Source: an uncultured Clostridia bacterium
GTDB lineage: Bacteria; Bacillota; Clostridia; Oscillospirales; Acutalibacteraceae
Direction of reading: 5' to 3'
Assembly: GCA_945874765.1 (NCBI GenBank)
Contig: CAMCHQ010000003.1
Coordinates: 62,001-126,000, forward strand
DNA: 64,000 nucleotides
Shown here: positions 32,251-40,211 of the stretch, piece by piece
Layout of the letters: each line of letters starts with the position of its first letter
How positions within the stretch are numbered: the stretch's first letter is position 1
Position numbers and translations under genes: made by a program
The notes under the pieces: model-generated
Seen by the model: the letters and a program-made list of their open reading frames with translations, nothing else
Databases searched by the model: none
What the model was told of the DNA's origin: nothing

Positions 32251-33165
32251 ATGCCTTATTTATTTGCACATTTCAGAGAAAAACTTACACCCGACGGCGA
32301 ACAGGTTTACTTTGCCGTCAGCAAAAACGGTTATGATTTCACCGCAGTAAACGGCGGCAAGCCCGTTATAACTTGCGACAAGGGTGAAAAAGGTTGCCGT
32401 GATATTGACATTATCAAGCTTAAAAATAATTCTTTTGTGATTATCGCAACCGACCTTTGCATAGTAAATCGAATGGACGAAAATCATAACATTAATTGGT
32501 CTGACATATCGTCAAACGGCAGTAAATTTATCTCTCTTTGGAAAAGTGACGATTTAGTTCATTTTACCACGCAAAAACTGATATATTTCGGCAGGGACGA
32601 CTTCGGCTGTATTTGGGCGCCTGAGATTTTTTATGATAAAGAGGCGGACGATTACATTATCCATTTCAGCGCAACAACCAAGGCGGATAATTTTCAAAAA
32701 ATGGCGATTTATTACACCAAAACAAAGGATTTTGAAAACTTTACCTATCCCGAACTGTTTTTTGAAAAAGAGTGCGGCGTTTTCGATTCTCATTTAGTTA
32801 AAATTGACGGCACGTATCACCTTTTTTACAAAACCTGTGCAAAGCCGCTGATGAATATGCACGAAACGTCAACCGACCTTTTCGGCAAATGGGAACACGA
32901 TTTTGATTTTCAAAAATATATGTCAACGCTTTACCGTCCCGGCTCTTTTGAGGCGGCAACTACATATATCCTCCCTGACGGAAAATGGTGCTTAATGCTT
33001 GACTTTTTCGGCTGTGAAAAAGAAAAAATGGGCTATGTTCCGTTTATAAGCGAAAAAGCAGGCGACGCTCATTTTCATCAGGTAAATCAACTTTTCACTT
33101 TTCCCTACGGCTTCAAGCACGGCGGCGTGATTGAGATAAGCGATGAGGAATATAATAGATTATAA
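32251..33165 (+). CDS. Glycoside hydrolase family 43-like protein (five-bladed propeller)
   Basis: 304 residues without a signal peptide, so probably cytoplasmic. The pattern of repeated DG and W/F strands fits a GH43/GH62/GH117-type propeller. CIWAPEIFYDKEADDYIIHF is the WAPE motif of GH43; CRDIDIIKLK near residue 50 and VFDSHLVKIDGTYHLF supply likely acidic residues. The family attacks arabinosides, xylosides or galactosides; the exact activity cannot be read and one catalytic acid is uncertain. It lies 74 bases after glmS and ends at a strong bidirectional terminator, so it may be partly co-transcribed with glmS. Confidence 0.75.
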   Translation: MPYLFAHFREKLTPDGEQVYFAVSKNGYDFTAVNGGKPVITCDKGEKGCRDIDIIKLKNNSFVIIATDLCIVNRMDENHNINWSDISSNGSKFISLWKSDDLVHFTTQKLIYFGRDDFGCIWAPEIFYDKEADDYIIHFSATTKADNFQKMAIYYTKTKDFENFTYPELFFEKECGVFDSHLVKIDGTYHLFYKTCAKPLMNMHETSTDLFGKWEHDFDFQKYMSTLYRPGSFEAATTYILPDGKWCLMLDFFGCEKEKMGYVPFISEKAGDAHFHQVNQLFTFPYGFKHGGVIEISDEEYNRL

Positions 33166-33178
33166 TTTATATAAATAA

Positions 33179-33212
33179 AACAGACGAACATCATACACGA
33201 TGTTCGTCTGTT
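33179..33212. terminator. Bidirectional terminator between GH43-like and XRE genes
   Basis: AACAGACGAACATC pairs with GATGTTCGTCTGTT around ATACAC, with A/T tracts on both sides (TTATCTTTT on plus, TTTATTTATA on minus). Confidence 0.85.
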
Positions 33213-33412
33213 TATCTTTTGCGCTCTTTTTCCCTGCCGACCAAATAATCTATGCTGACATCATAAAAATCTGCCAACTTCCAAAGAATATTTATCGGCA
33301 CTTCTCTTTTACCGTTTTCATATTGTGAGTAGGTGTTTTGCTTAATATTAAGCATTAAGGCAATTTGATTTTGCGTTATATCGTTATCCTCTCTTAAATC
33401 TCGCAGTCGCAT
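33212..33412 (-). CDS. XRE-family HTH repressor
   Basis: A 66-residue one-domain regulator of Cro/CI type: LREDNDITQNQIALMLNIKQ (HTH), TYSQYENGKREVP and LADFYDVSIDYLVGR. It is transcribed away from a five-gene cassette. The 111-base gap holds inverted repeats overlapping the cassette's promoter, so it very likely represses that cassette and itself. The stop lies in the shared terminator hairpin. Small size and absence of a sensor domain suggest control by concentration, a partner protein or proteolysis (inference). Confidence 0.88.
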   Translation of the reverse strand: MRLRDLREDNDITQNQIALMLNIKQNTYSQYENGKREVPINILWKLADFYDVSIDYLVGREKERKR

Positions 33413-33449
33413 ATTATCATCCCGTAAAAATTAATACAATAAATTTTAC

Positions 33450-33497
33450 AATATCTCGCTTAGAGATATTGACAAATATCTCATTTTGTGATATATT
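33450..33497 (+). promoter_or_regulatory. Promoter with overlapping operators for the JAMM-like cassette
   Basis: TTGACA (33469-33474), a 17-base spacer and TATATT (33492-33497). A perfect inverted repeat AATATCTC-GCTTA-GAGATATT (33450-33470) abuts the -35, a second imperfect copy (AATATCTCATTTTGTGATATA) fills the spacer and the -10, and a half site GAGATAT covers the start codon of the first gene (33519-33525). Confidence 0.8.
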
Positions 33498-33523
33498 TCG
33501 CTTTAAAGGAACACAATTGAGAT

Positions 33524-33943
33524 ATGAAACTAAGTAAAAAACTATTTGATGAAATAATTTACACCGTTGAAATTTCGCCTTATGAATCCGGCGGATTCTT
33601 AGGCGGAGTCAATGATACGGTTACTAATGTTGTATACGACAGCAAAAATTCATACTTTGCCTCATACATACCTGATAACGATTTACTAAATGACAGTATA
33701 CGCACTTGGGCTAAAAACAGCATTGAATTTCTCGGAATGTTTCACACTCATTATCCAAATTGCGCATCGATGTCACTCGGTGATGAAAAATTTATCAGTG
33801 AGCTAATGAAAAATAATTGCGATGAGAATGATATATTATATTTCCCGATTGTTATCGCAAGGAAAGAAATCAGCGTTTATGCGGCAAAACTTATCAATTC
33901 AAAATGCGAAATAAAAAAAGACGAGCTTATATTATTAGGATAA
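33524..33943 (+). CDS. JAMM/MPN (Mov34-PAD1)-like metalloprotease domain protein
   Basis: 139 residues, a single domain. It has the JAMM zinc motif: an upstream Glu in YESGGFLGG (about residue 22) and FHTHYPNCASMSLGD, giving H-x-H-x7-S-x2-D. JAMM enzymes cut isopeptide or peptide bonds, for example to remove or mature ubiquitin-like proteins; bacterial ones occur in defence and cofactor systems. No ubiquitin-like, E1 or E2 gene is visible here. The ATG has only a distant AAAGGA site and overlaps an operator half site. It is the first gene of an XRE-controlled cassette. Confidence 0.78.
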   Translation: MKLSKKLFDEIIYTVEISPYESGGFLGGVNDTVTNVVYDSKNSYFASYIPDNDLLNDSIRTWAKNSIEFLGMFHTHYPNCASMSLGDEKFISELMKNNCDENDILYFPIVIARKEISVYAAKLINSKCEIKKDELILLG

Positions 33944-33986
33944 TACACATTTGCTGTGTTATAAATAAATTTAAGGAGAAATAATT

Positions 33987-34166
33987 ATGAAAACAAAGGA
34001 AATCAAGATCACAAACGGAGCTTTTTGCTCAGGAAACTGCTCTGACTGTCTTTACGCTAACTTCCGTGACACCGACAGCTATGGCAGAGTAAGATGCAAC
34101 GGCGGCTATGGCGGATACAACAATCCTCAGGACAGAAACGGTTGCTTTCATTGGGCAAGAAAATAA
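33987..34166 (+). CDS. Small Cys-rich protein (zinc-binding-like)
   Basis: 59 residues, ATG after AAGGAG with good spacing. Five Cys: C14-x3-C18-x2-C21, then C37 and C53, in the context CSGNCSDCLYANF, RVRCNGGYGGY and GCFHW. The pattern C-x2-C...C...C with an aromatic end resembles a family of small clostridial zinc- or FeS-binding proteins (from memory). It is Gly/Tyr-rich in the middle like the next protein. It lies 43 bases after the JAMM gene and its stop is 2 bases before the next start, so it belongs to the same operon. Confidence 0.72.
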   Translation: MKTKEIKITNGAFCSGNCSDCLYANFRDTDSYGRVRCNGGYGGYNNPQDRNGCFHWARK

Positions 34167-34168
34167 TA

Positions 34169-34405
34169 ATGGGATTCTATGACGGCAAAGGCTATTACCG
34201 TGACAAGTTTAGCGGCGGATACGATGCAAAAGGTTATTGGCGCAACTGTGGCGAAGGCGGATTTGACTACCAAGGAATTTGGCGCTACTCAGGTGAAGGA
34301 GGATACGACGGTATGGGCGTATATCGATCACCGGGTGAAGGTGGCTACGATTCAAAGGGAATTTTCAGAGACGGCTTTGAGGGCTGGTCGGTAATATGCA
34401 CTTAA
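34169..34405 (+). CDS. 14-residue tandem-repeat protein
   Basis: 78 residues made of five 14-residue units of the form G-G-[YF]-D-x2-G-x-[WYF]-R-x3-E, for example GGYDAKGYWRNCGE, GGFDYQGIWRYSGE and GGYDGMGVYRSPGE. It ends GWSVICT. The regular Gly-Tyr-Asp spacing suggests stacked beta hairpins. Unit length equals that of MORN repeats, but the sequence is not MORN. The ATG at 34169 follows the Cys-rich gene by 2 bases; the longer frame from 34094 overlaps that gene and is rejected. There is no signal peptide. The function is unknown; it could be a structural or binding scaffold, or a JAMM substrate (inference). Confidence 0.72.
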   Translation: MGFYDGKGYYRDKFSGGYDAKGYWRNCGEGGFDYQGIWRYSGEGGYDGMGVYRSPGEGGYDSKGIFRDGFEGWSVICT

Positions 34406-34420
34406 GCAGAGGTTCAAAAT

Positions 34421-34807
34421 ATGAAATTTTTAATTATAGCGGCATTGCTTGCTCTTTTTGTTGTTATTATTGTTAAATCACGAAAAGGCAAAGGTGAAGA
34501 AGGAAGCAAACCTTTACATTCTGCGGAATATTTAAATTATTACAACTCCGTATACCGAATGAGTTATGCTCAGCTAAGTAAAATGCACGATGATTTAATT
34601 CCATTAGTGACGAAAACACTAATAGGCGGTCTTGCATATTATGACGATGACTTGTCCTATGATGAACAAAAACAAATGGAACAAAATATAAACAGTAAAT
34701 ATGTCACTATACCTGAAAAAGACAGAATTTACGGTTGTGTTACATATGATGAAGCAAGTAAGCTAAATCAGCTAATCGTTAAGAGAATTGACGAGCTTGA
34801 CAATTGA
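34421..34807 (+). CDS. Single-pass membrane protein of the JAMM cassette
   Basis: 128 residues, not recognised. An N-terminal helix (FLIIAALLALFVVIIV) is followed by a basic SRKGKG cluster, so the soluble C-terminal part should be cytoplasmic. That part is helical and acidic-polar (EYLNYYNSVYRMSYAQLSKM, a DDDLSYDEQKQMEQ segment). It begins 16 bases after the repeat protein, with GAGG before the ATG. The context ties it to the XRE-controlled cassette. Confidence 0.7.
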   Translation: MKFLIIAALLALFVVIIVKSRKGKGEEGSKPLHSAEYLNYYNSVYRMSYAQLSKMHDDLIPLVTKTLIGGLAYYDDDLSYDEQKQMEQNINSKYVTIPEKDRIYGCVTYDEASKLNQLIVKRIDELDN

Positions 34808-34821
34808 AAAAGGAGAACTGA

Positions 34822-35184
34822 ATGTTTTCAAAATTAAAATACATATTGTTTGATTTCAGTGACAATTTTAAAAGCGACTATTTGTCACTTACTAAAAAAA
34901 CAATCATTTTTTTAGTGGCCGGAATTATTATGTTTTCTTTTAAAAACAGCAATAATACAGTCTACACAATAGGTTGCTTTGCAATTATTATATTTGGCTT
35001 TTTGTGGGGTATAAATTTAGCGAATTCATTATTCAGCTTTACAAATATTTCTTCAAATGTAATGATTAGAATGACATTAAAACTAATAGTTTTTGCAATC
35101 TCATTCATTTTCGGCTATATTTATTTTATATGGTCCACAATTAAATTCATTATTGTTTTGATAAAAAAGCAAGCAAAAAAGTAA
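34822..35184 (+). CDS. Polytopic membrane protein of the JAMM cassette
   Basis: 120 residues, not recognised. Three or four hydrophobic helices (KTIIFLVAGIIMFSF, TIGCFAIIIFGFLWGINLA, MIRMTLKLIVFAISFIFGY and a last one before KKQAKK). Good AAAAGGAG site; 14 bases after the previous gene. It is the last gene before an AGCGTTGGA-type terminator and closes the cassette. Confidence 0.7.
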   Translation: MFSKLKYILFDFSDNFKSDYLSLTKKTIIFLVAGIIMFSFKNSNNTVYTIGCFAIIIFGFLWGINLANSLFSFTNISSNVMIRMTLKLIVFAISFIFGYIYFIWSTIKFIIVLIKKQAKK

Positions 35185-35202
35185 AAATGAATAACTAAAC
35201 TA

Positions 35203-35235
35203 AAAGCGTTGGAAATTTCAAATTTCCAACGCTTT
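35203..35235. terminator. AGCGTTGGA-type terminator hairpin, copy 3 (bidirectional)
   Basis: AAAGCGTTGGAAAT pairs with ATTTCCAACGCTTT, T run on the plus side (TTTTTATC) and AT-rich on the minus side. It separates the JAMM cassette from the convergent ydcF gene. Confidence 0.85.
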
Positions 35236-35238
35236 TTA

Positions 35239-35952
35239 TCATTTTATCTTTTCATTTATTAATGCCATTAGTTCTCTTACGAGAAAAGTCGGCAAATAAA
35301 GCGGTTCGGTTTTTGAACTGATTGAGGCAAATTTCAAGCCGTTCTTTTCACAAATATGCTTTGACCTTAATTGATGATATTCGCTTGTGACAATCGCAAC
35401 GTTTGTGTCAAAGCCGTTTTCATCAATAATCTTTTTGGAAAAGCGGATATTTTCATCGGTCGAAGTGGAAAGTTCCTCGCAAAAAAGCCTGTTTGCTAAA
35501 ATTCCCCTATCCGTCAAAAGTTTTTTAAGGCAGGCGGCTTCGCTTATATTTTCATCCTTACCCTGACCGCCGCTTAAAATTGCGATTGCGTCGGGATTTT
35601 TAAGCAGATAAAAATATGCTGCGTCTGCCCTTTTTTGAAGTGCAAGGCTTGGGACATCGCCCTTTACCCTACAGCCTAAAACTATTACCGTTTTTTGATT
35701 TGTTGCAGTATTTTTGCCGAATTTCATAACATAAGCGCAAGCGAAAATCAAAACAAGCGATATGACAAACAGTGCAAAAACCGTATATCTTTGGGCGGTG
35801 AAATTCATTTTATTGTAAAACAAACCCTCTGCCCCGAAGCAAAGTCCCAAAAATACACCTGCCGCCATACCCAAATTATGAACGCCCGTTACTATTGGAT
35901 ATATGAAAACTATCAAAAGCAAAACTGCAATGACTAAAGATATAATTTGCAT
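35239..35952 (-). CDS. YdcF/ElyC-family (DUF218) membrane protein
   Basis: 237 residues. Three N-terminal helices are followed by a DUF218 domain: KTVIVLGCRVKGDVPSLALQ, AIAILSGGQGKDENISEA, NRLFCEELSTSTDENIRFSK and IVTSEYHQLRSKHI. The family includes ElyC and SanA, which affect envelope integrity and lipid-carrier use; the biochemical activity is not settled. Its start overlaps the serS stop (TAATG), so it is the end of the parA-parB-serS-ydcF run. Confidence 0.85.
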   Translation of the reverse strand: MQIISLVIAVLLLIVFIYPIVTGVHNLGMAAGVFLGLCFGAEGLFYNKMNFTAQRYTVFALFVISLVLIFACAYVMKFGKNTATNQKTVIVLGCRVKGDVPSLALQKRADAAYFYLLKNPDAIAILSGGQGKDENISEAACLKKLLTDRGILANRLFCEELSTSTDENIRFSKKIIDENGFDTNVAIVTSEYHQLRSKHICEKNGLKFASISSKTEPLYLPTFLVRELMALINEKIK

Positions 35953-40184: not shown

Positions 40185-40211
40185 AAGGATTTCTCATCGT
40201 GAGAAATCCTT
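40185..40211 (-). terminator. Intrinsic terminator after rsmG
   Basis: AAGGATTTCTCA pairs with TGAGAAATCCTT around CGA, then TATTTTT on the minus strand; it ends the mnmE-mnmG-rsmG run. Confidence 0.85.

Follow-up and report, generated by a model that had tools for sequence, protein, structure and literature searches.

What does a gene for a JAMM metalloprotease do in a repressor-controlled cassette that holds no E1-like gene, and which of its neighbours belong with it? This question is raised by a 64,000-nucleotide stretch of DNA (the window) from an uncultured Clostridia bacterium of the family Acutalibacteraceae (contig CAMCHQ010000003.1, positions 62,001 to 126,000). A gene for an XRE repressor and five co-directional genes lie at 33212-35184 of the window, all at the positions given in an initial annotation. 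The five genes encode the JAMM protein, a small four-cysteine protein (CYS), a repeat protein (REP) and two further proteins, P5 and P6. Only JAMM and CYS form an obligate set; REP, P5, P6 and the XRE gene are optional. What stands out is that JAMM proteins akin to those fused to E1-like enzymes occur here with no E1 beside them, and that their partner is instead a very small four-cysteine protein that belongs to no described family. At a probability of about 45%, the sequences suggest a two-subunit metalloprotease module, in which JAMM would be the active enzyme, CYS its metal-binding regulatory or adaptor subunit, and the membrane or repeat proteins would provide location or targets.

A pattern for the CYS peptide, which reaches only close relatives, was scanned over a genome collection of 84,980 species. 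Thirty stretches matched, 23 of them encoding a relative, and a JAMM gene was present within about 0.7 kb in every one of the 23. In 20 of these pairs no unrelated gene lies between the two (L021 involves a second CYS copy and L039 a shortened JAMM). The order JAMM-CYS is kept in most genomes seen. In seven of the 28 loci there is a 4-base overlap between the first possible CYS start and the JAMM stop; this start was used in the alignment only for L026 and L028. By their titles, and taking the named genera to belong to Clostridia, as we assume, the 23 loci are clostridial, except L028, which is labelled 'bacterium' only.

Searches that started from JAMM were carried out at three taxonomic levels. 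In 200 genomes of the family, CYS adjoins six of six stand-alone JAMMs (window included) and none of three E1-fused JAMMs, and was found in exactly the six genomes with a stand-alone JAMM. In 391 genomes of the class, 11 JAMM matches were obtained at E <=0.001. All four at E <1e-40 (window included) have CYS. Three distant ones (G633, G647 and G845; E 3e-19 to 7e-24) adjoin a diverged CYS-like gene with hhalign probabilities of 86-95%: G633 (JAMM E 3e-19) has a weak CYS match (E 4.5e-4), and the neighbours in G647 and G845 (JAMM E 7e-24) are linked to CYS by hhalign at 86-89%. No CYS was found in four class genomes with weak JAMM matches (E 4e-6 to 5e-5). These matches were set aside, those of G864 and G676 as adjoining MoeB/ThiF-like genes, that of G665 as, by inspection, a different JAMM and that of G808 for an internal stop. 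CYS was detected in five of 394 genomes of the order, four with JAMM and one by a weak antisense match judged to be chance. Two CYS matches, that of G375 (E 5e-4) and that of G878 (E 4e-4), were put down to chance and left uncounted, on account of an antisense position inside a gene and of internal stops.

In all, 32 distinct loci clearly carry both genes: the window; G024, G009, G232 and G502; L017-L039; G740, G791 and G916; and the record MT839708.1. Pairwise identity among their JAMMs does not exceed 72%. A mirror-tree comparison of JAMM and CYS distances over 27 loci gave r 0.43 (permutation p 2e-4); random reassortment is thus rejected, and the two genes have travelled together. The initial annotation had named scattered genes, or small proteins found mostly without JAMM, as signs of a chance cluster. 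Put to that test, the core pair survives, with 32 loci and JAMM beside 23 of the 23 CYS genes. No description of the pair was found in the literature, as judged from titles and the openings of abstracts.

By its complete E...H-x-H...S-x2-D motif, the first gene is identified as a true JAMM, with putative isopeptidase activity. The five motif residues (listed in the table, window numbering) are invariant in 28 of 28 aligned relatives. Pfam Prok-JAB gives the window protein 15.7 bits against a cut-off of 25; of the 28 members, 22 have a match to it with E no higher than 1 (best 7e-7). The nearest solved structure to the JAMM profile is a JAMM1 entry (PDB 5lda/5ld9; E 1.1e-4), with alignment over profile positions 3-89 of 142 only. 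We take its organism to be Pyrococcus furiosus, and we know of no CYS partner for P. furiosus JAMM1. The window protein also matches JAB models of PADLOC (E 1.6e-6), presumably those for the cyclic-oligonucleotide-based antiphage signalling system (CBASS).

The nine JAMM matches of the family sample comprise the six stand-alone proteins and three N-terminal domains of ThiF/E1-like proteins (L007-L009; Pfam ThiF in L007 and L008, L009 by similarity to L007 at E 4e-72). Fused and stand-alone JAMMs have further invariant N, I and W positions in common. In a tree of 37 JAMM domains the E1-fused branch falls among the CYS-paired ones with poor support, and the MoeB/ThiF-linked JAMMs are on long branches. 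These comparisons support a kinship of the CYS-paired with the E1-linked JAMMs. Separately, the JAMM-ThiF fusions (L007 400-2195, L008 920-2898, L009 511-2250) were seen to adjoin proteins of about 110-165 residues that share a YICW-like motif and have no Pfam match at E 0.05; fusions and small neighbours are possibly an undescribed ubiquitin-like system. It was also observed that the JAMMs of L019 (5451-5927) and L020 (5484-5927) differ in their N-terminal halves and are nearly identical in their C-terminal halves, as if recombined.

CYS is 56-64 residues long in 27 of 28 aligned rows and 88 residues in a copy with a hydrophobic tail (L020, near-identical to L019, was left out of the alignment and the second CYS of L021 was included). 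It has four invariant cysteines (C-x2-C, C, C) and is conserved along its length. No convincing Pfam or NCBIfam match was found. An origin from the [4Fe-4S] high-potential iron-sulfur proteins was considered and rejected: the spacing is similar rather than identical (C-x2-C-x15-C-x15-C in the window, C-x2-C-x16-C-x13-C in that family), and neither HMMER nor hhalign supports it (probability 0.5% against one such protein). A ribosomally made, modified peptide was rejected as well, there being no modification enzyme among the proteins of the window cassette and a radical-SAM protein only in L036 among the proteins scanned. The second CYS copy of L021 (3219-3485) has a C-terminal hydrophobic, membrane-like segment, and in L039 (5784-7631) an intact JAMM-CYS pair is preceded by a shortened JAMM and a CYS domain that is fused to about 210 additional residues; an adaptor domain might occur in such forms.

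CYS is more conserved than JAMM in six of six locus pairs compared. The ratio of nonsynonymous to synonymous substitution rates (dN/dS) is 0.05-0.10 for CYS and 0.17-0.28 for JAMM in the three pairs computable for both, one of which is near saturation (dS about 2). CYS, JAMM, P6 and REP are under purifying selection in the computed pairs (REP of L019-L020, dN/dS 0.02). A conserved CYS beside a faster-evolving JAMM is more readily explained if CYS is an adaptor, cofactor or modifier than if it is a fast-changing toxin or a disposable substrate.

The mechanism proposed is that of an accessory, XRE-repressed cassette whose constant core would be a two-gene proteolytic module. JAMM would be an active zinc metallo-isopeptidase or peptidase, related to the E1-fused JAMM domains of the same bacterial family. 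CYS would be a small folded protein with four metal-ligand-like cysteines, most likely the regulatory or substrate-adaptor subunit of JAMM. Derepression at the XRE operator would cause the two proteins to be made together, and the pair would cut a protein linkage in the cytoplasm or at the membrane. Optional partners (P5, P6, Sel1 and repeat proteins, and others) may recruit the pair or serve as its targets. Different signalling or conflict operons may have taken up the module, plausibly as a switch that responds to stress or phage.

Several observations weigh against the two-subunit protease. Another gene separates JAMM and CYS in three of the 23 pairs (L018, L023 and L030), and gene-content clustering of 28 loci gave no third gene common to all. 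HMMER assigns the neighbours in G647 and G845 to CYS at E 0.8 and 0.2 only (20,000 sequences), which is no support. CYS has no detected homology to any zinc-finger or Fe-S family. The 37-domain tree does not resolve the branching order of E1-fused and CYS-paired JAMMs. Finally, linkage and mirror-tree agreement are also expected from co-inheritance of a cassette without physical contact between its products.

Features of the cassette are collected below. The initial annotation had described five tightly spaced genes behind one promoter, inverted-repeat operators of a divergent repressor covering that promoter, and terminators at both ends. All three elements were recovered, with intergenic gaps along the operon of 43, 2, 15 and 14 bp and the terminators as terminator-like hairpins; those that flank the cassette score on both strands (four found against 1.3 expected).

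Table 1. Features of the XRE-JAMM-CYS cassette, in positions of the window
Feature	Positions	Strand	Basis or remark
Terminator-like hairpin, both strands	33178..33213		between glycosidase-like upstream gene and repressor
One-domain XRE/HTH_3 repressor, 66 aa	33212..33412	-	HTH_3 E 1.2e-17
Operator 1, ATATCTC-N5-GAGATAT	33451..33469		0 mismatches; final base is first base of -35
Sigma-70-type promoter, TTGACA-17-TATATT	33469..33497	+	promoter scan
Operator 2, ATATCTC-N5-GTGATAT	33476..33494		1 mismatch; in spacer, extending into -10
JAMM/Prok-JAB metalloprotease (putative), 139 aa	33524..33943	+	E21, H74, H76, S84, D87
CYS, 59-aa four-cysteine protein, JAMM partner, undescribed family	33987..34166	+	sequence searches
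REP, 78 aa, five 14-residue repeats (aromatic-D-x-x-G-x-aromatic-R)	34169..34405	+	alignment
P5, 128 aa, one N-terminal hydrophobic segment	34421..34807	+	homologues in G024, G177, G791
P6, 120-aa membrane protein	34822..35184	+	homologue in G177 (L017)
Terminator-like hairpin, both strands, closes cassette	35202..35236		hairpin scan

Among 13 promoter-like sites in 33100-35300 the promoter scores highest, with 11 of 12 matches and a TG ahead of the -10; the number of such sites is near chance (10.9 in shuffles). Over the whole window, 0.28 matches to the operator motif are expected at <=2 mismatches and three are present; besides the two operators there is one at 40189, which does not belong to the cassette. 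A divergent XRE gene lies less than 160 bp upstream of JAMM in six of 35 JAMM loci (window included), and the gap holds an inverted repeat in all six (300 shuffles each, p 0 to 0.037); no close divergent XRE gene was found at the other 29. The XRE protein of L030, one of the six, is longer (117 residues). The geometry of the window recurs in L034, where one operator touches the -35 and the other lies between it and the -10; the half-site there differs (ATACTCA). The layout is kept while the DNA letters have changed. The window cassette has the anatomy of an autoregulated XRE module: its repressor consists of a single HTH_3 domain and is encoded divergently from the operon, whose promoter is overlain by operators. 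Repression is predicted from this anatomy. Divergent XRE-repressed cassettes occur as toxin-antitoxin, prophage and defence modules. The cassette resembles them in its one-domain divergent repressor and its operators over the promoter, but the genes under control here are the JAMM-CYS pair.

The remaining genes vary from locus to locus. When the fetched DNA of the 28 JAMM-CYS loci was clustered by gene content, a cluster of Sel1-type repeat proteins was present in 11 loci, XRE proteins in eight, REP in five and P6 in two. Among the proteins scanned individually, Pfam Sel1 was confirmed for those of L019 and L022; a 161-residue protein of L017 is without a match. P6 has three hydrophobic segments on a crude hydrophobicity scale. 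P5 homologues occur in the three other JAMM-CYS loci named in the table (leave-one-out hidden Markov model, E 5e-5 to 2e-11). In G177, which belongs to another genus, a single cassette unites XRE, JAMM, CYS, a 161-residue protein, REP, P6 and the P5 homologue; its site is a different one, flanked by genes that on inspection look der-like and ruvC-like. The initial view of the five genes as one co-occurring system thus holds for JAMM and CYS and not for the whole set, given the low counts of REP and P6.

Could the cassette be an anti-phage or conflict system, in which a JAMM-CYS switch activates a variable membrane or adaptor effector once XRE is relieved at infection? Such a function overlaps with the two-subunit protease and is, in our judgement, somewhat unlikely. 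In its favour, the distribution is accessory, CYS being present in one of 21 genomes of the window genus. In two congeners, serS and a DUF218 gene stand in the same order after the ParB-like end and are followed by a different gene. The JAMM-CYS pair sits in varied operons (Sel1, CHAT-TPR, NB-ARC, tubulin-like, kinase), and four loci have the following genes nearby: NB-ARC-TPR (L037, Ruminococcus sp. zg-924), CHAT-TPR (L027), kinase-lectin (L038) and, at L028 2975-9834, two tubulin-like (Tubulin_2) gene sets on either side of the pair, each split over two overlapping frames. These are raw occurrences. Zinc-ribbon proteins are also encoded near the pair in L037 and, just under the cut-off, in L052 and L090. 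In G234 (L089 5440-7906), a TIR-Sel1 protein has as its neighbour a membrane protein whose 14-residue repeats are of the REP kind, with no JAMM within 12 kb. The JAB models are the best PADLOC match. However, the PADLOC matches in the window cassette are weak and fall on JAMM only, to JAB and E1-E2 models (the repressor was outside the scan), and the window cassette and several others sit singly between genes that resemble housekeeping genes by inspection.

Carriage by phages or plasmids was also looked for. No relative was found in IMG/VR for the CYS alignment, the L032 JAMM or the L019 repeat protein, nor in a plasmid collection for the window JAMM or the G177 repeat protein. Among phage records, the L032 JAMM matches one unannotated 4-kb 'Bacteriophage sp.' record, MT839708.1 (L082), with an XRE-JAMM-CYS set at 1604-2592. 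The record is unverified, and it is possibly a bacterial fragment, since no phage gene was recognised in it.

A further alternative is that CYS is not a subunit but the substrate, a small modifier or matured peptide that JAMM, as its dedicated peptidase, would process or free from a conjugate, comparable to the processing of ubiquitin-like proteins. The constant pairing, the much stronger conservation of CYS than of JAMM, as expected of a modifier, and the kinship of these JAMMs with domains fused to E1-like enzymes are consistent with it. So is the presence near the pair of a radical-SAM gene (L036) and of a gene resembling M50 peptidases (L027), the latter scoring slightly below the family cut-off. 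Against these stands the end of the protein itself: CYS terminates 4-7 residues after its last cysteine in 27 of 28 aligned proteins, with no conserved C-terminal glycine. Nor was a ligase recognised. A search with the E1 part of L007 gave no E1-like frame in the DNA of 35 JAMM loci and recovered five of five control proteins. The single ThiF homologue over cut-off in the window genome is best matched by the NCBIfam model TcdA (1.5e-51, below the TcdA cut-off). CYS as a released substrate is possible but less likely, and we regard it as unlikely overall. The initial description of a JAMM beside a Cys-rich protein without ubiquitin-like, E1 or E2 genes stands for JAMM, CYS, XRE and the lack of an E1-like gene in 35 loci; E2 and ubiquitin-like genes were not systematically searched.

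The lack of a recognised E1-like gene also separates the cassette from known JAMM systems. Bil operons hold E1, E2 and ubiquitin-like genes together with a JAMM, but no E1-like gene was found in the 35 loci. Operons of E1 and JAB genes are known (Iyer et al. 2006, PMC1779556), and in one class of them a further gene product is predicted to bind metal; that study allows zinc-finger proteins of such operons as E3-like adaptors, and describes bacterial JAMM/JAB proteins with ubiquitin-like conjugation, sulfur transfer or phage tails. As far as the available part of that text goes, the present loci are alike in the JAMM motif and in the relatives L007-L009 fused to ThiF/E1-like domains, but they differ in a four-Cys protein with no E1-like gene found nearby and no recognised E2 or ubiquitin-like gene, none having been sought systematically. 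In CBASS, Cap3 frees conjugated cGAS by cleavage (Jenson et al. 2023, PMC10097602). Judged by the accessible portion of that paper, type II CBASS is likewise a multigene cassette with a JAB protease gene; unlike it, the present cassette has no recognised cGAS-like enzyme or Cap2 (E1-E2), with cGAS/DncV-like nucleotidyltransferases sought only in the proteins scanned with Pfam and PADLOC. The available parts of both papers describe no JAMM-CYS pair without E1. Polymorphic toxins have also been described in which divergent JAB domains are regarded as the toxin modules (Zhang et al. 2012, PMC3482391); no toxin architecture of the kind described in the part available was seen in JAMM-CYS loci.

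REP deserves separate mention. JAMM enzymes with ubiquitin-like substrates cleave behind C-terminal glycines, and the initial annotation had supposed that JAMM trims the repeat protein. REP might then be a polyprotein cut after the Gly-Gly of each repeat, which we consider very improbable. Five of five aligned proteins, window included, retain D, R and almost every G position of the 14-residue repeat, and GEGG is present in several repeats of the window and G177 proteins. However, the same positions read GDGF, GDGY, DEKY and similar in L019, L020 and L023. Cleavage of REP at Gly-Gly is thus unsupported, because three of the five proteins lack Gly-Gly in their repeats. Moreover, 23 of 28 JAMM-CYS loci have no repeat protein, and the G234 protein occurs with no JAMM within 12 kb; on the same counts REP was rejected as an essential part. 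A REP match in G351 looks like a chance antisense match and was discarded. The patchy outer genes REP, P5 and P6 could still suggest a chance cluster of unrelated small genes, but this has next to no probability given 32 diverse loci, the joint recurrence of REP, P6 and the P5 homologue in G177 and the purifying selection on four of the genes, and for the JAMM-CYS core it is refuted.

If the two-subunit protease is true, it would be a new way of controlling a JAMM enzyme, and a minimal system for learning what JAMM enzymes cut without ubiquitin; the pair is small and directly testable. A bolder extension, which is quite unlikely, is that CYS is a new small modifier without a ubiquitin fold or a metal-cluster switch. 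JAMM-CYS would then be an E1-less system of post-translational control in gut Clostridia, in which a JAMM no longer tied to ubiquitin-like conjugation would act with a four-cysteine partner that either determines its target or is itself that target. The repressor-controlled JAMM-CYS cassette of gut Clostridia may thus be a kind of bacterial protein-cutting switch hitherto undescribed.

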